DNA of 64,000 nt. It comes from Saccharothrix obliqua (lineage in GTDB: Bacteria > Actinomycetota > Actinomycetes > Mycobacteriales > Pseudonocardiaceae). The position numbers and the translations under genes are program-made. The DNA is taken from assembly GCF_019375475.1 (NCBI RefSeq), contig NZ_JAHXGQ010000010.1, positions 1 through 64,000 on the forward strand, given 5' to 3'. The notes beneath the pieces are model-generated. The model searched no databases. It saw only the letters and a list, made by a program, of their open reading frames with translations, and was not told where the DNA came from. Shown piece after piece: positions 8,577 to 23,118 of this stretch; within the stretch, counting starts at the first letter, position 1; each line of letters opens with the position of its first letter.

Positions 8577-9350
8577 TCAGGCGACGGTCGCCGCTTCCTG
8601 GTTCCCGGTGTACTTCACGTAACCCTGCTCCTCGAGCTGGTCGGCCAGCTCGCGGCCACCGGACTCGACGATGCGGCCGTTGGCGAACACGTGCACGAAG
8701 TCCGGCTCGATGTACTTGAGGATGCGGGTGTAGTGCGTGATCAGCATGACGCCCGCCTCGCCGGACTCCTTGTACCGGTTCACGCCCTCGGACACGACGC
8801 GCAGCGCGTCGACGTCCAGGCCGGAGTCGGTCTCGTCCAGGATCGCGATCTTCGGCTTGAGCAGGCCGAGCTGGAGGATCTCGTGGCGCTTCTTCTCACC
8901 GCCGGAGAAGCCCTCGTTCACCGAGCGCTCGGCGAAGGCCGGGTCGATGTCCAGGTCGGCCATCGCGCCCTTGACCTCCTTCACCCAGTGCCGCAGGTTC
9001 GGGGCCTCGCCGCGGACGGCGGTGGCGGCGGTGCGCAGGAAGTTCGACATGGACACGCCCGGCACCTCCACCGGGTACTGCATGGCGAGGAACAGGCCCG
9101 CGCGGGCGCGCTCGTCCACGCTCATCTCCAGCACGTCCTCGCCGTCGAGGGTGACGGAGCCGGAGGTGATCTGGTACTTGGGGTGACCCGCGATGGCGTA
9201 GGACAGGGTGGACTTGCCCGAGCCGTTCGGACCCATGATCGCGTGCGTCTCGCCCGACTTGATGGTCAGGTCGACGCCCTTGAGGATCTCCTTGGACGTC
9301 TCGTCGGCGGTGACCGAGACGTGCAGGTCCTTGATCTCCAGAGTGGCCAT
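8577..9350 (-). CDS. sufC: SufC ABC-type ATPase of the SUF scaffold
   Basis: A 257-residue cytosolic ABC ATPase that powers the SufB-SufC-SufD scaffold. Walker A is GPNGSGKST, the signature is FSGGEKKR and Walker B is IAILDETDSGLD; the DETDSGLD form is diagnostic for SufC rather than a transporter ATPase. The ATG start lies 50 nt downstream of the ferredoxin gene. The protein is about 10 residues longer than average at the C-terminus. Confidence 0.95.
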   Translation of the reverse strand: MATLEIKDLHVSVTADETSKEILKGVDLTIKSGETHAIMGPNGSGKSTLSYAIAGHPKYQITSGSVTLDGEDVLEMSVDERARAGLFLAMQYPVEVPGVSMSNFLRTAATAVRGEAPNLRHWVKEVKGAMADLDIDPAFAERSVNEGFSGGEKKRHEILQLGLLKPKIAILDETDSGLDVDALRVVSEGVNRYKESGEAGVMLITHYTRILKYIEPDFVHVFANGRIVESGGRELADQLEEQGYVKYTGNQEAATVA

Positions 9351-9400
9351 TGGTGCTCAGTTCTCCTGTGTGCGCCCGCCGTCGCGGGCGCGGTCAAAAG

Positions 9401-9733
9401 TCAGTTCGTGGTGGCGTTCGTCGGCGCGGTGACGTCCACGTAGACGTCGCCGTCGCGGAGGTCGACGGCGAAGACGTCGACCGGTTCGGTGGCGGGCGGG
9501 GAGGACGGGCGGCCGGTGCGCAGGTCGAAGCACGACCCGTGCAGCCAGCACTCGATCCCCTTGCGCGTGATGTCGCCCTCGGACAGCGAGACCTCCGCGT
9601 GCGTGCACAGGTCGCGCAGCGCGTGGACGGCCTCGCCGTCGCGGACCAGGACGACGGGGGTGTACGCGTCGCCGACCTCGAACGCGACCGGTTTGCGGTC
9701 GTCGAGGTCGGACAGCGCGCACACCCGGATCAC
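9401..9733 (-). CDS. Rieske-type [2Fe-2S] ferredoxin embedded in the SUF operon
   Basis: A 110-residue Rieske ferredoxin resembling the small ferredoxins of non-heme oxygenases. The cluster ligands are visible as CTH near residue 43 and CWLH about 17 residues later. Its place between sufD and sufC is a recurrent actinobacterial arrangement and suggests it supplies electrons for cluster assembly, although this role is inferred. GTG 9733 overlaps the sufD stop (GTGA). The stop lies in a stretch ending 50 bp before sufC. Confidence 0.88.
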   Translation of the reverse strand: MIRVCALSDLDDRKPVAFEVGDAYTPVVLVRDGEAVHALRDLCTHAEVSLSEGDITRKGIECWLHGSCFDLRTGRPSSPPATEPVDVFAVDLRDGDVYVDVTAPTNATTN

Positions 9734-10905
9734 GCGCCCACCGCTTCGAGTTCCGCCTCGATCGCGGCCTCCAGGCGCTCGCGCACCTCGGGGACGGAGA
9801 TCTTCAGCAGGATCTCGTGGAAGAAGCCGCGCACCACCAGCCGGCGCGCCTGCTCCTCGGGGATGCCGCGGGCCTGGAGGTAGAACAGCTGCTCGTCGTC
9901 GAACCGGCCGGTGGCGCTGGCGTGACCCGCGCCCTCGATCTCGCCGGTCTCGATCTCCAGGTTCGGCACCGAGTCGGCACGCGCGCCGTCGGTGAGGACC
10001 AGGTTGCGGTTCAGCTCGAAGGTCTCGGTGCCCTCGGCCGCCGCGCGGATCAGCACGTCGCCGATCCACACGGTGTGCGCGTCGTCGCCCTGGAGCGCGC
10101 CCTTGTAGACCACGTTGCTGCGGCAGTTGGGCTGCGCGTGGTCGATGAACGGCCGGTGCTCCAGGTGCTGGCCCGCGTCGGCGAAGTACAGGCCCAGCAG
10201 CTCGGCGTCGCCGCCGCGGCCCGCGTAGGTCACCACGGGGGTGATGCGGACCAGGTCGCCGCCGAGGCTGATCACGGTGTGCCGCAGCGTCGCGTCCTGA
10301 CCCAGCTTCGTGTGGTGCGACGAGACGTGCACCGCGTCGTCGGCCCAGTCCTGGATGGCCACGACGGTGAGGTGCGCGCCGTCGCCGACGACGAACTCCA
10401 CGTTGTCGGCGTACGCGCCGGAGCCGCGGTGGTCGAGCACCACGACGCCCTCGGCGAACTGCTCGGCGCGGACCTGGAGGTGGCCGTAGGCGACCTCGCC
10501 GACGCCGGGACCGGTGATCGTGACCGTGGTCGGCCCGACCTTGGTGTCCTTCGGCAGCGTCACGACGGTGGCGTCGGTGAACGACGTCCACGCCTGCGCC
10601 GCGATCCGGTCGCCGGGGGTGCCCGCGACACCGAGCCGGTCGTCGCCCTTCGCGACGGTCTCCACGCGCACGCCCTCGGGCGCGGACACGTCGACCGCCG
10701 CGACCGCGGTGGCCAGCGCGCCGTTGTGCAGGTTGGCCAGGCGCTTCATCGGCGTGAAGCGCCAGATCTCCTCGCGGCCGCCGGGCACCTCGAACGCGGC
10801 CACGTCGAACGACGCGAAGTGGTCCGCGCGCGAGGAGACCGGGACGCCCGCGCCGTGCGAGTGGGCCGTCAGGCCGTGCTGCTGGTCTTGAGTGGTGACG
10901 GCCAT
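9730..10905 (-). CDS. sufD: SufD scaffold subunit
   Basis: A 391-residue SufBD-family beta-helix protein that pairs with SufB and SufC to assemble nascent Fe-S clusters. The N-terminal REEIWRFTPMKRL, the central HTVISLGGDLVRITP and the C-terminal FDDEQLFYLQARGIPEEQARRL motifs are typical. The conserved histidine needed in SufD-type partners is in RPFIDHAQPNCRSN. The ATG is a single base from the sufB stop. The N-terminal 25 residues are His/Ser-rich and poorly conserved in the family. Confidence 0.94.
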   Translation of the reverse strand: MAVTTQDQQHGLTAHSHGAGVPVSSRADHFASFDVAAFEVPGGREEIWRFTPMKRLANLHNGALATAVAAVDVSAPEGVRVETVAKGDDRLGVAGTPGDRIAAQAWTSFTDATVVTLPKDTKVGPTTVTITGPGVGEVAYGHLQVRAEQFAEGVVVLDHRGSGAYADNVEFVVGDGAHLTVVAIQDWADDAVHVSSHHTKLGQDATLRHTVISLGGDLVRITPVVTYAGRGGDAELLGLYFADAGQHLEHRPFIDHAQPNCRSNVVYKGALQGDDAHTVWIGDVLIRAAAEGTETFELNRNLVLTDGARADSVPNLEIETGEIEGAGHASATGRFDDEQLFYLQARGIPEEQARRLVVRGFFHEILLKISVPEVRERLEAAIEAELEAVGA

Positions 10906-13172: not shown

Positions 13173-14756
13173 GTGACGGCGGGCGGATTGGTGATGGCGG
13201 ACCGGGACGGGACGGGCGAGGCAGCACTCCTCGACGCCCGGGAACGGCGGCAGCTCGACATCATCCGCAGGTGGGGCACGGTGGGCGCGCTGCTGATGTT
13301 CGTCGGCTCGCTCGGCGCGGGCGCCGCGCCGGTGTTCAGCCCGCTGCCCGGCACGCCGGTGCTCGGCCTGTTCCCGCGGATGCCCAGCGCGGCCATGGCG
13401 GTGGTCTGGACGGGCGTGTTCCTGGTGGTGTCGGCGTGGCTGTGGCTGGGCCGGTTCGCGCGGCCGGGCAGGCCGCGGCTGGTGTCGCGCAGCCAGCTCG
13501 ACCGCACGCTGCTGATGTGGATCACGCCGCTGGTGTTCGTGCTGCCCATGTTCAGCCGCGACGTCTACAGTTACCTGGCGCAGTCGCAGATCGCGGCCAA
13601 CGGCCAGGACCCGTACGAACTCGGCCCGCAGAGCGCGCTGGGCGTTGACCACCCGCTGACCACGAACGTGCCCAACATCTGGCGCGAGACGCCCGCCCCG
13701 TACGGGCCGCTGTTCCTCGCGTTCGGCCGGGTCATCTCGATGGTGACCGGCGAGAGCGTGCTGCCCGGCGTGTTCCTGCACCGGCTGCTGGTGCTGGTCG
13801 GCCTGGCCATGATCGTGTGGGCGCTGCCCCGCCTGGCGCGGCGGTTCGGCGTGCCGCCGGTGAGCGCGCTGTGGCTCGGCGCGGCGAACCCGCTGGTGTT
13901 GTTCCACCTGGTCGTGGGCGTGCACAACGAGGGCCTGGCGATCGGCCTGATGCTGGTCGGCCTGGAGCTGGCGTTGCGGCGGATGCCGGTCCGGCCGGGC
14001 ACGCCGGTGACCCGCGAGGAGCTGCTGTGGATCGCGCTGGGCGCGACCATGATCACGTTCGGGGCGGCGGTGAAGATCCCGGCGGCGCTGGCGCTGGGCT
14101 TCCTCGGCGTGATGATCGCCCGCCGGCTGGGCGGCTCGTTCCCCGACCTGGTCAAGGCGGCCCTGCTGCTGTCCGCCGTGGCGGGTGTGGTGATGGTCGC
14201 CACCTGCCTGGGCACGGGCCTCGGGTTCGGCTGGGTGTCGACGTTGAACGTGGCCGGGACGGTGAAGAGCTGGATGTCGCCGCCGACCGCGATGGGCTTC
14301 ATGGGCGGCGGGCTCGGGCTGCTGCTCGGGCTGGGCAACCACACCGACTCCATGATCGCGTTGATGCGGCTGGTCACGCAGGCCGTGTCGGTGGTGATCG
14401 TGGCGGTGCTGATGTGGAAGGCGTTCAAGGGGCGGATCAAGGCGGTCAACGGCCTGGGCGCGGGCCTGGGCGCGGTGCTGGTGCTGGGTCCGGTCCTCCA
14501 GCCGTGGTACGTGCTGTGGGCCGCCCTGCCGCTGGCGACGGCCGTGCTGGCGAAGCGGTTCCGGCTGCTCGCGACGACGGCCAGCGCGTTCATCGCGGTC
14601 GTGCTGCCGCCGACCGGGTCGGCGTTCGACGGGCGTGCCTACATCGTGCCGCAGGCCGTGGTGGGCGCGGTGATCGCGTTCGCCGTGTGCGTGTTCGTGG
14701 CACGCAGGCAGGTCATGCCGCTGATCCGCCGCGACCCGTTGCCCGACGCGGCCTGA
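13173..14756 (+). CDS. mptB: Polyprenyl-phosphate mannosyltransferase MptB-like (GT-C)
   Basis: A 527-residue membrane glycosyltransferase of the MptA/MptB group, about 12 hydrophobic segments, using polyprenyl-phospho-mannose to add alpha-1,6-mannose during lipoglycan core synthesis at the outer membrane face. The GT-C signature is in the first large loop (MFSRDVYSYLAQSQ), with ENIWRETPAPYGPLF-like NIWRETPAPYGPLFL and HNEGLAIGLML further on. In M. tuberculosis the ortholog lies next to sufR in the same divergent arrangement. I chose GTG 13173 for its -10 spacing; GTG 13149 and ATG 13194 are alternatives. Confidence 0.85.
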   Translation: MTAGGLVMADRDGTGEAALLDARERRQLDIIRRWGTVGALLMFVGSLGAGAAPVFSPLPGTPVLGLFPRMPSAAMAVVWTGVFLVVSAWLWLGRFARPGRPRLVSRSQLDRTLLMWITPLVFVLPMFSRDVYSYLAQSQIAANGQDPYELGPQSALGVDHPLTTNVPNIWRETPAPYGPLFLAFGRVISMVTGESVLPGVFLHRLLVLVGLAMIVWALPRLARRFGVPPVSALWLGAANPLVLFHLVVGVHNEGLAIGLMLVGLELALRRMPVRPGTPVTREELLWIALGATMITFGAAVKIPAALALGFLGVMIARRLGGSFPDLVKAALLLSAVAGVVMVATCLGTGLGFGWVSTLNVAGTVKSWMSPPTAMGFMGGGLGLLLGLGNHTDSMIALMRLVTQAVSVVIVAVLMWKAFKGRIKAVNGLGAGLGAVLVLGPVLQPWYVLWAALPLATAVLAKRFRLLATTASAFIAVVLPPTGSAFDGRAYIVPQAVVGAVIAFAVCVFVARRQVMPLIRRDPLPDAA

Positions 14757-14765: not shown

Positions 14766-14774
14766 AACGCGGGG

Positions 14775-14796
14775 CCGGGTGACGACGATCACCCGG
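14775..14796. repeat. Inverted repeat just before the caspase/STAND gene
   Basis: Arms CCGGGTGA (14775-14782) and TCACCCGG (14789-14796) are separated by 6 nt and end one base before GTG 14798. The position suits an operator or a translation-blocking hairpin, since no ribosome site is otherwise seen at this start. Confidence 0.5.
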
Positions 14797-14797
14797 C

Positions 14798-17700
14798 GTG
14801 GCGAGGCGGGGGTTGTCCATCGGCGTCGGCGGGTACGACCGGCGGGAGCGGCTGGACTTCGCGCCCGGGCTCGCCCGGCGGCTCGGGCAGGCCCTCGGCG
14901 CGCTGGGCTACCAGGTGTCGACCGTCGCCGAGGAACGCCTGCCCGGCGCGGAGCTGGGCGGTCACGTGCACCACGCGCTGGACGCGGGTGGACCGGACGA
15001 CCTGGCCGTGGTGCACCTGGTCGCGCACGGTGAACGCGCCGACGGGGACGCGACCGTGTTCGCGTTGGGCAGCGACGGCGCGCCGCACCGGGACACGAGC
15101 GTCGCCCACTGGCTGACCATGCAGGAGGCGGGCACGCGCCCACAGGCGTTGTTCCTGCTGGACCTGTGCTCGGCCGGGTTGTCCGCGCGCCTGCCGTGGC
15201 AGCCCCGCGCCGGGGCGCCCGCGCGTGGCTGGGTGATCGCCGCCTGCGGGCCCGACGAGGCCGCCTACGACGGCCGGTTCACCCGGGCCGTGATCACCGT
15301 GCTGGAGGCGTTGCGGGCCGGTGAGCTGGACATCGACCCGGGTGTGCCGCACGTGCCGCTGAGCGCGGTGGCGCGGGCGATCCGGCAGGAGGTCAACCGG
15401 CTCGCCGACGCCGACGACGCCTACCCGCAGCAGGTCACCGCGAGCCTGGTGGACATCAGCGCCGACGGCGACCCGCCGTTCTTCCCCAACCCGGCCTACG
15501 ACCCCACGCCGGGCAGGCGGCTGCGGGCCGGGGTCGACGCGGGCCTGCTGCCGTTCCTGGACGACCTGGACGAGGGCCTGGACGCCCGGCACTTCCTGGA
15601 GCGCGCCACCGGTCTCGGCCGGCTGACCGAGACCGGTGGCCTGGTCGGCTGCTTCACGGGCCGCGACCGGGAGCTGCGGCTGATCTCGCCGTGGCTCAAC
15701 GGCGACGGCGACCACGACCTGCGCGTGGTCACCGGCAGCCCCGGCTCCGGCAAGTCGGCGTTGCTGGGCGTGCTGGTGTGCGCGGCGAGCCCGGCGCTGC
15801 GCGAGGCCACCCGGCCGGTGTGGGGCCGCGTCGCCCAGTTCCCGCTGCCGGTGCCGGACCTGGCGGCCGTGCACGCCCGGCAGCGCGGGGTGGCCGCGGT
15901 GACCGCCTCCGTCGCCCGCCAGCTCGGCCTGCCGGAGAACGCGCCGCCCGCCGCCCTGGTCGCCGCGCTGCGTGCCCGCGACCGGCGGCCGGTGCTGGTG
16001 GTGGACGCGCTGGACGAGGCCGACGACCCGACCGCGCTGATGGAGCAGCTCCTGTTACCCCTGACCGCGCCGGGACGGCCCGTGCGGCTGCTGGTGGGCG
16101 TGCGGCGTTACGACGAGTTCGCGCCGCTGTTCGAGCGGGGTCGGCTGCACGACCTGGACGACGTCGAGGAGAGCGTGCTGGAGGACGACCTCCTCGACTA
16201 CGTGATCCGGTTGCTGCGCACGGTCCCCGAGTACCGGGCCGGCGGCGGTGTGACGGGCGCGTTCGCGCAGGCCGTCGCGCACGCGCTGGCCGCGCCCGGC
16301 GAGGGTGGTCGGCACTGGGGGCCGTTCCTGGTGGCGGGCCTGTACACGCGGCACTTCGTGGCCGCGTACGCCGACGACGTCGTGACCGACCCGGAGGTGG
16401 CGGCGGAACTGGGCCGCGCGGTGCCGGCCGACCTGCGTGGCGTGCTGGAGCTGGACCTGGCACTCGCGCACGACCAGCCGTGGCTGCGGCCCGTGCTGCG
16501 GGCCCTGGCCGCCGCGCGTGGCGCGGGGATGCCGGTGTCGGTGCTGGCGCGGGTCGCGCCCCGGTTCGCGCCGGACCTGCCGCCACCCACCGCGGGCCAG
16601 GTGCGTGCCGCGCTGGCCGCGGCCCGGTTCTACCTGCGCCAGTCGATGGACACCGACCGCAGCAACCTCTACCGGCTGTTCCACCAGGGTTTGGCCGACA
16701 CGCTGGCGAGCGGTTCGGCGTGGGAGGCGGGCGTCGTGCTCGACGGGCTGCTGTCGTCGCTGGGTCCCGAGGGCGCCCGGGACTGGACGGCGGCCGAGCC
16801 GTACCTGTTCCGGCACGTCGCCGCGTACGCCGCCGCGGCGGGGCGGGCGGAGGTGGTGGACGACCCCGGTCTGGTGCTGCACCCGGACTGGCCGCGCGAC
16901 CCCCGGTTCGCCGGCGTCACGACCCCGGCGGAGCTGGCGATGGCCGCCGCGCGGGCGGGCGAGGTCGCGCTGGCGCGACGCGCGGCGAACGCGGTCGGGC
17001 AGCCGCCGCTGCCGTGGCAGCCGCGCTGGGCTATCGGGACGCGGGAACCGGCACGGGTGCGTGTAGCGGGCACGGCCACCGAACCGGGGCTCAACCTGTC
17101 GGTCACGATCTCCGCTGACGGCTCCACCGCGGCGGCCGTGGGCGCCGACGGCGCGACGCTGTGGTCATGGCCTGAGCACGGCCAACCAGAGGCCGAGGCG
17201 GTGTGGCACACCGCCGTCGGTGAGATCGTCGCGCTGGCCCTGGACGGCGGGCTGTGCGTGGTGGCCGACCGGGACCAGGTGCGCGGCCTCGCCGACGGGC
17301 GGCCGACGCTCTTGGAGGACGTCCCGGCCGTCGAGGCGGCGTTGCCGATCGGCAGCTCCACGTTCCTGTGCGTGACCTACGACGGCGTGCTGTGCCTCTA
17401 TGACCACCGGCAGCCGCGATTGGCCCGACTGGCGGACATGGGCCATCCCGGTGGGTCGTGGGCGCTCGGCTACACCATCGACCACGTGCCGGTGGCCATG
17501 GCGCTGAACAAGGGCGGTCAACTGGTCCGGTTCGACCCCGCTAAGCAGAAGTGGTCCCTGCTCGGCTCCGCGCGTGGATTGACGGCACTGGCGTGCGACC
17601 CACGCGGCACCCGGGTCGTGGTGGCCGACGCGGACGGCTTGGTGCGCTCGTCATCCTTGACGGGCGAGGTCGCGTGGCAGCGCGTCAAGCGGTTCGACTC

Positions 17701-18592
17701 GCCACCCACCGCGCTGGCCGTCACCTCGTCCGGCACGGTCGTCGCGGGCTGCCGCAACGGCGTCGTGCACATCGTCCGCGACGATGGGCACGACTCGATC
17801 CACGTCTCCGCCGCGGAGATCACCGCGATCGCCCTGGACGAGACCGGCGACCGCGTCGTCGCACTGGACCAGGAAGGCGGTGTCTCGTTTTACGACCACA
17901 CGATGCGCGAACTGGTCGGGCGGCACCCGGACACCACCCTCGTGGTGGGTTCCCGGAAAGGCGCCGACGACGTCGAGCCGGCCGCCGTCACGGCGTTCAT
18001 CCTCGAAGAGGACACGCTGCTGGCCGGGTTCGCCAACGGGGTCGTGGCGGGGCTGGACGAGCGGACCGGGCGCCTGGAGGCGGAACTGCACACCTCCGCC
18101 GTGCCCACCGGTTTCGCGCGGGTGGCGCTCGGCACGCAGGAGGGGCTGGTGATCGGCACCGCCGACCGGCACCTGCTGGTGGCCGACGACGGGAACGCCC
18201 GGCACGAGCTGGGGAACTCGGAGTGGGCGCGGGCGCGGCTGGTCCGGCAGCCGGCCACGCACCTGGTGGTGGACGGCCGGTTCGTGGAGGTCGGGTGCGC
18301 GAACGACCGGGTGGTCCTCGACTCCCGCGACCTCGGCGAGCCGCTGAAGGTGGACCTCGGCGCGCACCCCGGTGGCGGGGAGGTGCACTGCACGCACGTC
18401 GACGGGCGGCCCACGGCGTTCACCGGCGGCACGGACGGGTGTGTGCGGGTGTGGGACCTGACGGACCGGTGCCTCGTGCACACCATCGACATCGGCAGTT
18501 CGCCGGTGTGGCGGATCGAGTACGTGGGCGGGGAGACGCTGCTCGTCGGCGCGGGTGGCGAGTTGTGGTGGTTCGACCGGGAGAGTGCCTGA
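14798..18592 (+). CDS. Caspase-like protease / STAND NTPase / beta-propeller protein
   Basis: A 1264-residue multidomain protein. Residues 1-230 form a caspase-like (C14) fold with a plausible His77 (VAHGE) and Cys124 (LLDLCSAG) dyad. Residues 285-480 are a P-loop NTPase with Walker A GSPGSGKS (313-320) and Walker B VLVVDALDEAD (399-409), the arrangement of STAND signalling ATPases. A helical region follows to about 740. The remaining 500 residues are beta-rich repeats with WD40-like blades, including GTDGCVRVWDLTDRC near the end. By analogy with apoptosome-like proteins, the propeller would sense a trigger, the NTPase oligomerise and the protease fire. The stop shares a base with the next gene (TGATG). 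No signal peptide or membrane segment is visible. Confidence 0.85.
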   Translation: MARRGLSIGVGGYDRRERLDFAPGLARRLGQALGALGYQVSTVAEERLPGAELGGHVHHALDAGGPDDLAVVHLVAHGERADGDATVFALGSDGAPHRDTSVAHWLTMQEAGTRPQALFLLDLCSAGLSARLPWQPRAGAPARGWVIAACGPDEAAYDGRFTRAVITVLEALRAGELDIDPGVPHVPLSAVARAIRQEVNRLADADDAYPQQVTASLVDISADGDPPFFPNPAYDPTPGRRLRAGVDAGLLPFLDDLDEGLDARHFLERATGLGRLTETGGLVGCFTGRDRELRLISPWLNGDGDHDLRVVTGSPGSGKSALLGVLVCAASPALREATRPVWGRVAQFPLPVPDLAAVHARQRGVAAVTASVARQLGLPENAPPAALVAALRARDRRPVLVVDALDEADDPTALMEQLLLPLTAPGRPVRLLVGVRRYDEFAPLFERGRLHDLDDVEESVLEDDLLDYVIRLLRTVPEYRAGGGVTGAFAQAVAHALAAPGEGGRHWGPFLVAGLYTRHFVAAYADDVVTDPEVAAELGRAVPADLRGVLELDLALAHDQPWLRPVLRALAAARGAGMPVSVLARVAPRFAPDLPPPTAGQVRAALAAARFYLRQSMDTDRSNLYRLFHQGLADTLASGSAWEAGVVLDGLLSSLGPEGARDWTAAEPYLFRHVAAYAAAAGRAEVVDDPGLVLHPDWPRDPRFAGVTTPAELAMAAARAGEVALARRAANAVGQPPLPWQPRWAIGTREPARVRVAGTATEPGLNLSVTISADGSTAAAVGADGATLWSWPEHGQPEAEAVWHTAVGEIVALALDGGLCVVADRDQVRGLADGRPTLLEDVPAVEAALPIGSSTFLCVTYDGVLCLYDHRQPRLARLADMGHPGGSWALGYTIDHVPVAMALNKGGQLVRFDPAKQKWSLLGSARGLTALACDPRGTRVVVADADGLVRSSSLTGEVAWQRVKRFDSPPTALAVTSSGTVVAGCRNGVVHIVRDDGHDSIHVSAAEITAIALDETGDRVVALDQEGGVSFYDHTMRELVGRHPDTTLVVGSRKGADDVEPAAVTAFILEEDTLLAGFANGVVAGLDERTGRLEAELHTSAVPTGFARVALGTQEGLVIGTADRHLLVADDGNARHELGNSEWARARLVRQPATHLVVDGRFVEVGCANDRVVLDSRDLGEPLKVDLGAHPGGGEVHCTHVDGRPTAFTGGTDGCVRVWDLTDRCLVHTIDIGSSPVWRIEYVGGETLLVGAGGELWWFDRESA

Positions 18593-19380
18593 TGCCCCCT
18601 CTGCTCGGCGTGCACGGCGTCGGCAACTACAAGCACTTCCGACAGGCCGGGACGGTGGACGGCGCGGCGGCCGCGCTCGCCGGGCGGTGGAGTGCCGCGC
18701 TCGGCCGTGACTTCGCCGTCGCCTACTACGCGCACCACCTGCACCGCGGCACCCCGCAGGGGCCCGGGGACGACCCGGCGGCGTTGCCCGACGAGGCGCA
18801 GGACCTGCTGGTGGCGTGGGTCGAGGCGCTGCGGGACGGCGTGGCGGTGTCGCAGGGGACGCGCACGGTGCGCGCACGGCAGGCCGCGGACTGGCTCACC
18901 CGCCGGTACGGGGCGGCGGCGCGGGCGTTCGCGGTGGTGTTCTGCCGGGAGGTGCACACGTACCTGGCCAAGCCGGGGTCGCCGCGACGCGTGGCGGCGC
19001 GGCGCGCCGTGGCGGACGCCGTCGCCACGCACCGGCCGAAGGTGGTCGTCGCGCACTCGTTGGGCAGCGTGGTGGCGTACGAGGCGTTGTGGGCGCACCC
19101 GGAACACGACGTGGACCTGCTGGTGACGGTGGGCAGCCCGCTGGGGATGCCGGGCGTGGTCGCGCCGCGGCTGCTGCCCGCCGACGCCGCCCGACCGCCC
19201 CGTGTCGCGCGGTGGGTGAACGTGGCCGACGTGGGCGACCCGGTCGCCGTGCCGCGAACCGGGCTGCGTGACCTGTTCACCGGTGTCGAACGGGACGTGG
19301 CGGTCGTCATGGGCGAGTGGCGTGCCCACGGCGTGTCCTCCTACCTCCGAACGCCGGAGGTGGCCGCGCTCCTCGAGTAA
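18592..19380 (+). CDS. Alpha/beta hydrolase coupled to the caspase/STAND gene
   Basis: A 262-residue protein with an alpha/beta hydrolase layout: the oxyanion-type GVHGVG at 6-11, nucleophile elbow VAHSLGSV with Ser156, acid candidates Asp213 and Asp216 in NVADVGDPVAV, and His245 in WRAHGVSSYL. This is a lipase/esterase-like triad; the substrate is unknown. ATG 18592 overlaps the upstream stop by one base, so it is made with the caspase/STAND protein. Its role as partner, target or effector of that protein is inferred from coupling only. Confidence 0.8.
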   Translation: MPPLLGVHGVGNYKHFRQAGTVDGAAAALAGRWSAALGRDFAVAYYAHHLHRGTPQGPGDDPAALPDEAQDLLVAWVEALRDGVAVSQGTRTVRARQAADWLTRRYGAAARAFAVVFCREVHTYLAKPGSPRRVAARRAVADAVATHRPKVVVAHSLGSVVAYEALWAHPEHDVDLLVTVGSPLGMPGVVAPRLLPADAARPPRVARWVNVADVGDPVAVPRTGLRDLFTGVERDVAVVMGEWRAHGVSSYLRTPEVAALLE

Positions 19381-19467
19381 CCCGTTCGGGGCGTAACCCG
19401 TTGGTTCCGGTGAGCGACCAACCGGTACCTGGGAAAATCCCCGCGCGTCCGGGGGAGGGAGCGGTCG

Positions 19468-22400
19468 ATGGCCGACGTGCCGCAGGAGGAGATCCGGTTC
19501 GCCGTGGTCCTCAACGGCGGGGTCAGCCTCGCCGTGTGGATGGGCGGCGTCGTGCTCGAACTGGACCGGCTGACCAGGGGCGACGGGTCGTACGCCGACC
19601 TGCTCGACCTGGTCGGCAGCACCGCTCGCGCGGACGTGATCACGGGGACGTCGGCGGGTGGCATCAACGGCGCCGCGCTGGCGTTGTCCCAGGTCAACGC
19701 CAACGCGAAGCTGGAGCGGCTGCGGGACCTGTGGGCCGAGCAGGGGCGGATGGAGCAGTTGCTGCGCACCCCGTTCCGGGGTTCGCCGGTGTCGCTGCTC
19801 AAGGGCGACGAGTTCTTCCTGCCGCGGCTGCGCGAGGCGCTGGACCGGCTCACCACCGACTTCTCCCCCACCCGGCCGGAGGCGCGGCCGGTGGACCTGC
19901 GGATCACCACGACGCTGCTGGCGGGCGTGCCCGAGGTGACCTACGACGACCTCGGGCAGCCGCTGGTGCAGTCCAGCCACCAGGGCAGCTTCTCGTTCCG
20001 CCGCGACCCGGCCGGGCGCGACGACTTCGCCGCCGACCGGCTGCCCGGCCTGGTGGACCGGATGGCGTTGGCGGCCCGGTCGTCGGCGTCGTTCCCGTTC
20101 GCGTTCGAACCGTCCTACGTGCCGGTCGGCGCGTCCGGCGGTGAACGGCCGGACATGGCCGACGTGGCGTCGTGGGCGAGCGATGGCGACGACCGGTCCC
20201 GGTACGCCGTGGACGGCGGCGTGCTGGTCAACACGCCCACCAAGGAGGCGTTGGAGGCCATCGACCGGATGCCCGCCGAAGGTCCCGTGCGGCGGGTGAT
20301 GCTGCTGGTGTTCCCCCACGCCCGTGAATCGGCGGCGGACCCGGAGGCGCCCGCGGAGGGCGGGCTGCCCAGCACCCTCGGCACCGGCGCGAAACTGCTC
20401 TCGGCGTTGACCAGCCAGAGCGGCCGGACCTACGTGGAGCGGATCGAGGAGCACAACCGGCTCGCCGCGTCGCGGCGCGGCGGGCGCAGGGCACTGCTGG
20501 ACCGGCTGGCCACCGGCGGGTCGGTGACGGCGAAGCTGTACGCGCTGGCCGCCACCCTGCACGAGCACTACGTGGACATCCGCGTCCGGCAGGCGGCGCG
20601 GGACGTGACGGCCCGGCAGTTCGAGGCGCCCGGCGCGAACGCCGCCGGCTGGACCTTCGAGCGGGTCCGCGCCGCCGCCGAGGCCGCGCAGCGGTCCTAC
20701 CTCGCCAAGCGGGGCGTGCTGCCCTACGTGCCGGGCGAGCCGGAGCCCACCGCGCTGCCCGCACGCGGGTGGCCGTGGGGCATCGGGATGGCCGACCGGC
20801 TCGCGTCCGCCGCGACGGACCTGCTCAAGCGGCTGGTGTGGGTGGCTCCCGACGGGTCGCGGCTGGCCCGCGCGCGCACCGACCTGCACGAGGTGCGGGC
20901 GCGGCTGCGCGCCGCGCGCGTCGAGCTGGACGCGCGGTGGACCACCGGCGAGCCCCGCGCGCTCAACCGGGACTACTGGGAGCAGCGGGTCGAGGCGTTC
21001 GCCGCCGGGATGCTGCCCACCGGCGACGAGGGCGTCGGCGACCGGGTGCGCGCGCAGGTGGACCGGATCGCCGGTGTCCTCGGCGACGCGCGTGACGCCC
21101 TCGACCGGCTCGGCGACGACCGGGTGCGGATGGCCGGGCTGGGCTCGTGGCGCGCGCTGCTGTTCGAGCCGCGGACCGCCGAGGAGGCCGCCGCCGGGCT
21201 GGACGGCGGTGACCTGCTGCTGGCGCGGGCGCTGGCCCTGGAGGTCGCCACCACGTGCCTCGCCGACGACTCGCGCGGCGGCGTCGACCAGGCCGTGGAC
21301 CTGGTGCAGATCAGCCTCCAGACGCGCAACGCGTTCGCCGACTACAGCGTCACGCCCGACGACAAGGCGGGTGGTGCGGCGTTGAGCCGGTTCTCCGGCT
21401 TCCTGAAGCGGTCGTGGCGGGTCAACGACTGGATCTGGGGCCGGATGGACGGCGCGACCATGCTGTGCAAGGTCGTGTTCGACCCGAAGCGGCTGCTGCG
21501 CGTCGACCTGCTCACCGGGTCGGACACCGCCGAACCCGCCGAACGCGCCCGGCAGCGCGTGGACCGGTTGGTGGCGGCGTTGTTCGGCGACGGGCTGCCC
21601 GCGTCGCTCGCGCCGTGCGCCCAGCGCGCGGTGGAGGAGCTGACCGCGCTGTACCGCGACCCGACCGACGACCACGCGCCGACCTGCGACGCGCTCGCCG
21701 AACTCGCCGCCTGGGGCCTGCACGTGCGGATCATCTGCGAGGAGCTGCCCGCGTTGCGGGCCGCGATCCTCGCCGACCGCAACGAGGGCGCGGACCGGCG
21801 GTCGCGTGGCGAGTTGTTCCTGGAGGAGCAGGCGGAGCTGCTGGCGCGGCTGCCGGTGCGCACCGACGCGCAGCGCGTCGAGGTCGGCATGGAGGCGCTG
21901 GCCGCGTTCGACCGGGCCGGGATCGGGCGTGAACCGCTGTCCCAGGAGGCGTCCAGCGACCAGGTGATCCGCACCGCGGCCACCGCGGCGGCGGTCGCGA
22001 TCACCGTGGCGGACAGCGAGCACTCCGGCCTGGGCCCGGCGAAGCCGCTGACCCGCGCCTTGCGCGGCGCGGCGCTGCTGCCGTACTGGACGATCACCGG
22101 GCTGACCCGCGGGAGCCGGTTGGCGCAGTTCCTCGGGCTGCTCGGGTTCGCGCTCGGCGGCGCGCTGCTGGTGCTGGCGTTGTTCGACCTGCTGCCGCCG
22201 TGGGCGGTCGGGCCCGCCGCCGCGTTCGGCACCGCGACCCTGCTGGCGGCGTTCGGGTACGCGGCGCTGCGCACCGGGACCCTGCTGCACGGGCTGGTGC
22301 TGCTGTCGCCGGTGATACCGCTGGCGGCGGTGGCGGTCGACCGGACGCGCAGCGCGCTCACCGCGGGTGAGACCGGCGAGCAGGCCGTGACCGGGATGGT

Positions 22401-23118
22401 CGCGGTGGTCGGCGTGCTGCTCGTGGTGGTGGGGCTGCTGGTGATCGGCAGCCTGCCCGCGCCCGTCGGGACGCCGCTGGCCGTGCTCAAGCGCGTCCGG
22501 CTGCGACCGCGGCTGCTGGTGCGGTTCCTGGCGGTGGCGCTGGTGCTGGGCGTGGTGTGGGCCGTGATGCGGTACCGGCTGTACGACGTGGACGCGACGC
22601 TGGTGGTGATCGGCACCGCCGTGGCGATCCTGGTCGGTGGGCTGGTGTCGTTGCGGCTGGGCCGGTCGTTGCAGCGGTGGCGGCGGGTCGACGGCGCGTG
22701 GTCGACCGAGCACGCCGAACCACCCGCCGCGGCCACCGCCGGGTGGGCCGCCGTCTACGGCGCGTTGCTGCTGTCGCTGGCGGCGTTGCTCCAGCTGTTC
22801 CAGGTGCGGTTCATCGGGTGGGAGGCGGTGCTCGCGACGGCGTTGTCCTTCGGCCTGGTGCTGCTGCTGGTGACCACCTGGTGGGTGCCGTTGCGGGCGC
22901 GTCGGCGGATCGAGCGGAGCCTGGTGGAGCAGTCGGCGTTCGTGGACTTCGAGGGCGACGTGCCGGGCGGCCTGCTGCGCCGCCTGGAGGGCCACGCCAT
23001 GCTGTTCCGCTTCCTGACCACCGTGGACGACCGGGGAAAGCCGGCCCTCGGCCCGCGCGGGCTGCGGGTGGCGCAGCGGATCGCCCGCCGCCAGGCGACC
23101 GGGGCGGACCGCGACTGA
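19468..23118 (+). CDS. Large patatin-like phospholipase with membrane C-terminus
   Basis: A 1216-residue patatin-family protein. The catalytic serine is Ser62 in GTSAGG (60-65), preceded by the NGGVSLAVWMGGV glycine-rich oxyanion region, and the dyad aspartate is Asp249 in VDGG. A long helical middle section (about 400-840) matches the extended actinobacterial patatin group rather than small CapV-type patatins. The last 350 residues hold about eight hydrophobic segments, placing the enzyme at the membrane. ATG 19468 follows GGGGGAGGGAG. It begins 87 bp after the hydrolase gene, where GTTGGT and ACCAAC half-sites flank a possible separate promoter. Confidence 0.85.
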   Translation: MADVPQEEIRFAVVLNGGVSLAVWMGGVVLELDRLTRGDGSYADLLDLVGSTARADVITGTSAGGINGAALALSQVNANAKLERLRDLWAEQGRMEQLLRTPFRGSPVSLLKGDEFFLPRLREALDRLTTDFSPTRPEARPVDLRITTTLLAGVPEVTYDDLGQPLVQSSHQGSFSFRRDPAGRDDFAADRLPGLVDRMALAARSSASFPFAFEPSYVPVGASGGERPDMADVASWASDGDDRSRYAVDGGVLVNTPTKEALEAIDRMPAEGPVRRVMLLVFPHARESAADPEAPAEGGLPSTLGTGAKLLSALTSQSGRTYVERIEEHNRLAASRRGGRRALLDRLATGGSVTAKLYALAATLHEHYVDIRVRQAARDVTARQFEAPGANAAGWTFERVRAAAEAAQRSYLAKRGVLPYVPGEPEPTALPARGWPWGIGMADRLASAATDLLKRLVWVAPDGSRLARARTDLHEVRARLRAARVELDARWTTGEPRALNRDYWEQRVEAFAAGMLPTGDEGVGDRVRAQVDRIAGVLGDARDALDRLGDDRVRMAGLGSWRALLFEPRTAEEAAAGLDGGDLLLARALALEVATTCLADDSRGGVDQAVDLVQISLQTRNAFADYSVTPDDKAGGAALSRFSGFLKRSWRVNDWIWGRMDGATMLCKVVFDPKRLLRVDLLTGSDTAEPAERARQRVDRLVAALFGDGLPASLAPCAQRAVEELTALYRDPTDDHAPTCDALAELAAWGLHVRIICEELPALRAAILADRNEGADRRSRGELFLEEQAELLARLPVRTDAQRVEVGMEALAAFDRAGIGREPLSQEASSDQVIRTAATAAAVAITVADSEHSGLGPAKPLTRALRGAALLPYWTITGLTRGSRLAQFLGLLGFALGGALLVLALFDLLPPWAVGPAAAFGTATLLAAFGYAALRTGTLLHGLVLLSPVIPLAAVAVDRTRSALTAGETGEQAVTGMVAVVGVLLVVVGLLVIGSLPAPVGTPLAVLKRVRLRPRLLVRFLAVALVLGVVWAVMRYRLYDVDATLVVIGTAVAILVGGLVSLRLGRSLQRWRRVDGAWSTEHAEPPAAATAGWAAVYGALLLSLAALLQLFQVRFIGWEAVLATALSFGLVLLLVTTWWVPLRARRRIERSLVEQSAFVDFEGDVPGGLLRRLEGHAMLFRFLTTVDDRGKPALGPRGLRVAQRIARRQATGADRD

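Follow-up and report, generated by a model that had tools for sequence, protein, structure and literature searches.

The first 64,000 nucleotides of contig NZ_JAHXGQ010000010.1 of Saccharothrix obliqua (hereafter the window) carry two overlapping genes that we read as a mobile two-gene module lying between two conserved chromosomal genes, in which a caspase joined to an Apaf-1-like switch is paired with an alpha/beta hydrolase and would act in cell death or defence. We give this reading a probability slightly above one half (about 0.52). Most likely the pair is a self-contained cell-death or defence switch; this function is what we infer, the domains, catalytic residues, pairing, mobility, divergence of the sensor and exclusion of the neighbouring patatin being taken from sequence comparison or structural models. 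The original prediction for this region had treated three genes as one conflict system, namely those for the caspase protein (14798-18592), the hydrolase (18592-19380) and a patatin (19468-23118). The three reading frames, their sizes and the TGATG overlap of the first two were as it described, and His77, Cys124, Ser156, Ser62 and Asp249 lay exactly where it had placed them. Its conflict-system interpretation fits the first two genes, with their recurrent pairing, conserved residues, diverging sensor and mobility, and loses the patatin.

The first gene (14798..18592, + strand, GTG start) is an open reading frame with Pfam matches that encodes a caspase-STAND-propeller protein of 1264 residues. 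Its caspase domain spans residues 1-235 (14798..15502), with His77 at 15026-15028 and Cys124 at 15167-15169, and has in the structural model a MALT1/caspase-9-like protease fold; the protein thus combines the fold and the His/Cys dyad that mark the caspase clan, and in the Pfam scan Peptidase_C14 (PF00656) did not match it up to E 1. Residues 262-745 (15581..17032) comprise a STAND NTPase with a helical/winged-helix region, matched by AAA_16 at 33.8 bits (cut-off 32.6) and NPHP3_N at 26.8 bits (cut-off 24.8). The best Foldseek match of the model of this region was full-length Apaf-1 (E 1.7e-7), and the model gives the central region an Apaf-1-like STAND switch fold. Walker A (residues 313-320, 15734-15757) and Walker B (near residues 399-407, about 15992-16018) are present as predicted and conserved in relatives, in which G313, G316, G318, K319 and D403 are invariant; the Walker motifs and the winged-helix fold expected of a STAND NTPase were both found. 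The C-terminal propeller, residues 746-1264 (17033..18589), likewise predicted, was recovered through WD40-type matches in the Pfam scan; these matches and its divergence make it the putative sensor. We found no Pfam-scan match to CARD or gasdermin in the three window proteins.

To follow the protein across genomes, GTDB genomes were searched with a profile built from the window protein and seven relatives (eight sequences), and the 80 top-ranking of at least 131 confirmed relatives, among the 594 stretches considered, formed a set of 80 loci. Conservation of the catalytic residues, proposed earlier as a check, held throughout this set, the caspase dyad being kept in 54/54 caspase domains and the serine-hydrolase triad in 38/38 hydrolases. 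The parts of the module do not change at the same pace. The window and Saccharothrix deserti share 73% identity in the caspase, 74% in the STAND domain, 64% in the helical region and 70% in the hydrolase, and 37% in the propeller; the Lentzea and Actinosynnema homologues show the same pattern, with a propeller identity of 27%. Such rapid divergence fits a pressure on the propeller to alter its binding target, with the caveat that propeller sequences in general drift quickly.

Two observations stand beside this gene. The window genome holds three other Peptidase_C14 caspases above the Pfam cut-off (places L001-L003), none of which is the first gene. A perfect 9 bp inverted repeat with a 6-base spacer (14774-14797) abuts the GTG start and could be a candidate operator or start-codon hairpin. 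It was matched by 4/300 simple shuffles of the 150 upstream bases, and it is not common to the relatives, since in each of eight of them between 32 and all 300 of the 300 shuffles equalled the best upstream repeat.

The second gene (18592..19380, + strand) begins with an ATG that overlaps the TGA stop of the first (TGATG) and encodes a hydrolase of 262 residues with the catalytic triad Ser156/Asp216/His246. Its model has an alpha/beta-hydrolase, lipase-like fold. Foldseek gave no PDB match for this model at E 0.001 or better (best 1.3e-3), and VIA-align gave a clearer outcome than Foldseek. PADLOC reported no defence-system match here; its three weak matches, the best at 22 bits, involved the propeller and the patatin, and none fell in the hydrolase.

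The co-occurrence of the genes speaks for a two-gene unit. Among the 80 loci, 52 have a caspase N-terminus and a hydrolase lies nearby in 38 of them; the 28 loci with another N-terminus have none (0/28). Most of these other N-termini are trypsin-like (26/28, by eye, some with a degenerate motif), one (L151) is cut short and one (L162) is different. The association gives a Fisher p of 3.6e-11, a value that is overstated because the loci share ancestry. In these comparisons the product of the second gene, a serine hydrolase with a modelled lipase-like fold, accompanies caspase-type and not trypsin-type switches. In 37/38 paired loci the hydrolase match lies at most 300 bp from the caspase match or from the end of the STAND frame, and in the remaining one at 791 bp. 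Order and orientation vary: 18 hydrolases are downstream on the same strand, 11 upstream on the same strand, 8 downstream on the opposite strand and 1 upstream on the opposite strand. Half of the 14 caspase loci without a nearby hydrolase are at contig ends or on a short contig. At family level the pair was present in 15/32 loci selected by a match to the hydrolase or to STAND, and two of these loci (L087, L089) had caspase and STAND without the hydrolase. Some family-level loci duplicate records of the 80-locus set (L066/L100, L069/L126, L073/L125, L074/L114 and L089/L158), so counts from different sets must not be summed.

Signs of transfer accompany this pairing. Ten plasmid records matched, and the pair was found in all seven examined; on the plasmids of Streptomyces atratus (NZ_CP109383.1) and Streptomyces sp. 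(NZ_CP109329.1) it is flanked by a Tn3-family transposase and a tyrosine recombinase. Among 54 pair neighbourhoods, counted after leaving out three duplicates and with genes from a crude gene caller made for this analysis, any additional gene family was seen in six at most. We regard the caspase protein and the hydrolase, on this comparative evidence, as a recurrent, mobile pair.

The site in the window points the same way. On the left the module borders a conserved membrane-protein gene outside it (13173..14756, + strand; no Pfam match at 1e-5), which we tentatively take to be mannosyltransferase-like, and on the right the patatin gene (19468..23118, + strand), whose start is 87 bp downstream of the hydrolase. 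In 8/8 relatives at this site, six congeneric with the window and two from other genera, the membrane-protein gene is followed directly by the patatin gene, 90 to 281 bp on, and all eight keep the same flanks on the SUF side and the glycosyltransferase side. With nothing between the two genes in these relatives, the caspase and hydrolase genes represent an insertion of ~4.6 kb. Seven of the seven sampled genomes of the genus have the patatin; in five of them our searches found neither the caspase-STAND gene nor the hydrolase, and one holds the intact pair. A family-level sample of 150 genomes, searched at E 1e-3 with weak matches counted, gave matches to the patatin in 61, to the hydrolase in 39 and to the caspase-STAND part in 21.

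The hydrolase family also adjoins other switch proteins. In L260 a caspase-VMAP protein stands beside a hydrolase that scores 57 bits to the hydrolase profile; one scan assigned Peptidase_C14 and VMAP-M18 to this protein, and VMAP-C appeared at the same place in another scan only. In L259 the hydrolase adjoins an EAD2-VMAP protein without a caspase match, and in L086 a caspase-STAND-FHA-TPR protein. Of 20 class-level loci, comprising the 18 strongest matches after the window's own and two chosen next to VMAP-C, four had the pair and four another caspase or VMAP context. No caspase or hydrolase match was found in 14 family-level VMAP loci. A VMAP ternary system in the window genome was considered and rejected, VMAP-C having 0 matches there. 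These neighbourhoods indicate a caspase/hydrolase couple that is plugged into several switch types, in agreement with Kaur et al. 2020 (PMC7159879), in whose paper, as far as its accessible part goes, caspase-bearing VMAP ternary systems always have a neighbouring alpha/beta hydrolase.

Several results weigh against our reading. The window site lies amid core genes (SUF genes, a glycosyltransferase and an ABC transporter) and is not a defence island. Seven caspase loci with at least 3.6 kb on each side have no nearby hydrolase; when the six genomes that hold them were searched whole, four had a hydrolase elsewhere and two gave no match, and the hydrolase is therefore not obligatory. Conversely, 12 of the 20 class-level hydrolase loci have neither a caspase match nor a VMAP-C neighbour. 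No Pfam model scores above its cut-off for the window hydrolase, and the one pointer to a lipid substrate is the resemblance of its modelled fold.

The same data bear on what the pair is for. It could be a switch for developmental or stress-signalling cell death in actinomycetes and not a defence system: the titles of all 80 records are those of actinomycetes, many of filamentous genera, no phage record carries a relative of the caspase-STAND part, and the window site, as said, is no defence island. We consider this unlikely, because occurrence of the intact pair in only one of seven genus genomes, copies on plasmids and beside transposase genes, and a sensor that changes faster than the rest are more typical of conflict genes.

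Less probable still is an arrangement in which the caspase kills and the hydrolase is its regulator or immunity partner instead of a lethal effector. The pairing with caspases and the TGATG overlap would also suit an effector and its antidote, and a remnant hydrolase persists without the STAND gene in a genome of the same genus (G127). Such a role sits poorly with the variable order and orientation of the two genes (18/8/11/1), unusual for toxin-antitoxin pairs, with the fully retained triad, which points to catalysis, and with the seven caspase loci that lack a nearby hydrolase despite having room for one.

That the module serves the maintenance or competition of plasmids and transposons, not the host, seems to us improbable. 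The two Streptomyces plasmids with the pair between transposase and recombinase genes speak for it; against it, four copies (L113, L124, L136 and L144) sit on contigs 1 to 11.6 Mb long, most records being drafts, and a Pfam scan of eight flanking window genes, out of nine called between 8577 and 27330 with the patatin left aside, found no transposase or integrase and no MoxR or vWA gene.

The patatin itself, a protein of 1216 residues, belongs to NCBIfam TIGR03607 (391.1 bits, cut-off 262.45), and its membrane C-terminus is as predicted, residues 885 to 1133 containing seven hydrophobic 19-mers. The comparison with CapV, an effector of CBASS, failed: the CBASS lipase model NF041079 gave 14.7 bits, far below its cut-off of 200. 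The patatin profile found no match in 139 related loci, a number that includes repeated records, and recovered 9/9 positive controls. Whole-genome searches of nine pair-bearing genomes recovered patatin relatives in seven, with strong matches in four (E 0) and weak ones in three (31-38% identity). In no case did the relative lie in the locus of the pair; it was on another contig in G377, G378 and G379, and in a Lentzea genome possibly on the contig of the pair, some 290 kb away. The idea of a trio with the patatin as third component and second lipid effector, attractive for its position on the same strand just downstream and suited to a system that damages membranes, is hardly credible and was rejected, given the eight relatives with the patatin at the same place without the pair, its presence in every sampled genome of the genus, the 0/139 loci, the seven of nine genomes with a relative outside the pair locus and an upstream intergenic sequence that is partly present at the empty sites (by eye). 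We regard it as a neighbour with no relation to the module: a conserved chromosomal gene that also occurs where both others are missing, an outcome that the original prediction had itself named as refuting. The proposed co-occurrence check thus came out in favour of the caspase/hydrolase pair and against the patatin, and the remark that no named system has exactly these three genes holds only because they do not form a unit.

Returning to the two-gene module, we looked for a contact point between its products. The hydrolase loop formed by residues 88-92 (Q-G-T-R-T; 18853..18867, + strand) is a candidate caspase recognition or docking loop. In a tree of 75 hydrolases, from which four duplicate records had been removed beforehand, the window protein falls in a clade of 43 rows (support 100/99), 36 partnered and 7 partnerless. 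The loop motif around G89 is present in 27/36 partnered and 1/7 partnerless rows of this clade, the partnerless rows representing three lineages only. Over all rows the loop pattern, which was picked after seeing the rows, occurs in 29/35 downstream-partnered, 2/23 upstream-partnered and 5/21 other hydrolases, and the upstream-partnered hydrolases outside the clade lack it. In the partnerless L068 both His246 and the motif are lost. Glycine holds the loop position in 35/35 downstream rows; an arginine follows within three residues in only 21/35, so a single arginine cleavage site in the loop is not supported. The pattern suggests, as a weak lead, that the QG loop serves the caspase.

The sole partnerless row that keeps the motif in this clade is L067 of G127, where a shortened hydrolase (9299-10009) stands without a caspase-STAND gene. 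Its neighbours are, by eye, those of the intact pair of Saccharothrix deserti (L098), and it is likely the remnant of a loss at a second insertion site. Lone family hydrolases were also seen in L241, L243, L244, L246, L247, L249, L250 and L252, near the same type of neighbour gene, presumably peptide-release-factor-like; they are apparently a conserved chromosomal gene of another actinomycete family, and the QG loop motif is absent in all five that were tested.

Some pair loci have further neighbours. On the Streptomyces canus plasmid NZ_CP108066.1 (L265) a GGDEF gene lies 2 kb and a gene annotated as a Pycsar system effector ~5 kb from the pair, surroundings that are possibly a small defence cluster. 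In four Streptomyces pair loci (L120, L134, L135 and L137) a MoxR-like AAA ATPase gene (by eye) adjoins a large protein, of a family with NACHT/TPR by Pfam in L099; being common to the four, this combination may tie the subgroup to another conflict system. In L066 the frame of 1387 residues contains near its start, upstream of the caspase, a stretch that resembles, by eye, the N-terminal domain of translation factor IF-2.

We propose that the propeller would recognise an invader or a stress signal and that the STAND domain would bind nucleotide and oligomerise. Caspases brought together in this way may activate each other and act on the hydrolase, on other proteins or on both, the conserved QG loop being where the hydrolase might be cut or engaged; the hydrolase would attack membrane lipids and cause cell death or growth arrest before the invader spreads. 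Precedents are found in the accessible descriptions of Canu (PMC12799240) and of the bacterial CARD-NLR systems (PMC13236601). A more specific and tentative version, which we hold to be possible though doubtful, is that of a one-chain bacterial apoptosome that cuts or engages the hydrolase at the QG loop (G89) and turns a pro-lipase into a membrane-killing lipase, the couple being used in at least three switches (STAND-propeller, STAND-FHA-TPR and MoxR-vWA-VMAP). Should the caspase activate the lipase, protease-gated effectors in bacterial immunity would extend from nucleases to lipid hydrolases, and the presence of the hydrolase beside caspases in different switch systems would be explained.

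The two halves of the module are known separately, as metacaspase-NACHT-WD40 proteins (PMC3501461) and as the caspase/hydrolase couple (PMC7159879). In the accessible open literature, supplementary files aside, we found no description of a caspase-STAND-propeller protein paired with this hydrolase, and the union of both halves as a stand-alone module is apparently new within that literature. The metacaspase-NACHT-WD40 proteins, reported as widely distributed (Asplund-Samuelsson et al. 2012, PMC3501461), share the domain order of the first gene, but the accessible part of that paper mentions no alpha/beta-hydrolase partner, and the study relied on Peptidase_C14, which does not match the window caspase. 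The VMAP (MoxR-vWA-VMAP) ternary systems resemble the module in their caspase with a neighbouring alpha/beta hydrolase, an arrangement described in the available text of PMC7159879 and checked here in one locus (L260). They differ in that the window caspase shares its chain with a STAND NTPase and a propeller, with no MoxR or vWA in the eight flanking genes. The CARD-NLR systems (LypABC and the gasdermin systems), as described in the accessible part of PMC13236601, also combine a protease with an NLR-like switch, lead to lysis and in some variants have phospholipases in place of gasdermins; the window proteins have no CARD or gasdermin match, and their protease, a caspase, belongs to the same chain as the switch. 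Compared with the apoptosome of Apaf-1 and caspase-9, sensor, switch and caspase are here one chain without a CARD match, accompanied by a lipase-like partner, so that one protein of a compact mobile system unites the components of the animal apoptosome (an Apaf-1-like switch, a propeller and a caspase). A further parallel is Canu (2025), in which, according to the accessible text of PMC12799240, a MALT1-like caspase activates a pro-nuclease for phage defence, and caspase-nuclease and trypsin-nuclease pairs show protease and partner enzyme shifting together among immune systems. The window pair likewise joins a MALT1-like caspase to a co-moving enzyme; that enzyme is, by model and triad, an alpha/beta hydrolase, unlike the metallo-beta-lactamase-fold nuclease of Canu, and proteolytic activation is suggested for it by the conserved loop only. 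If the pro-lipase reading is true, the module would match the Canu caspase-nuclease pair on the lipid side.

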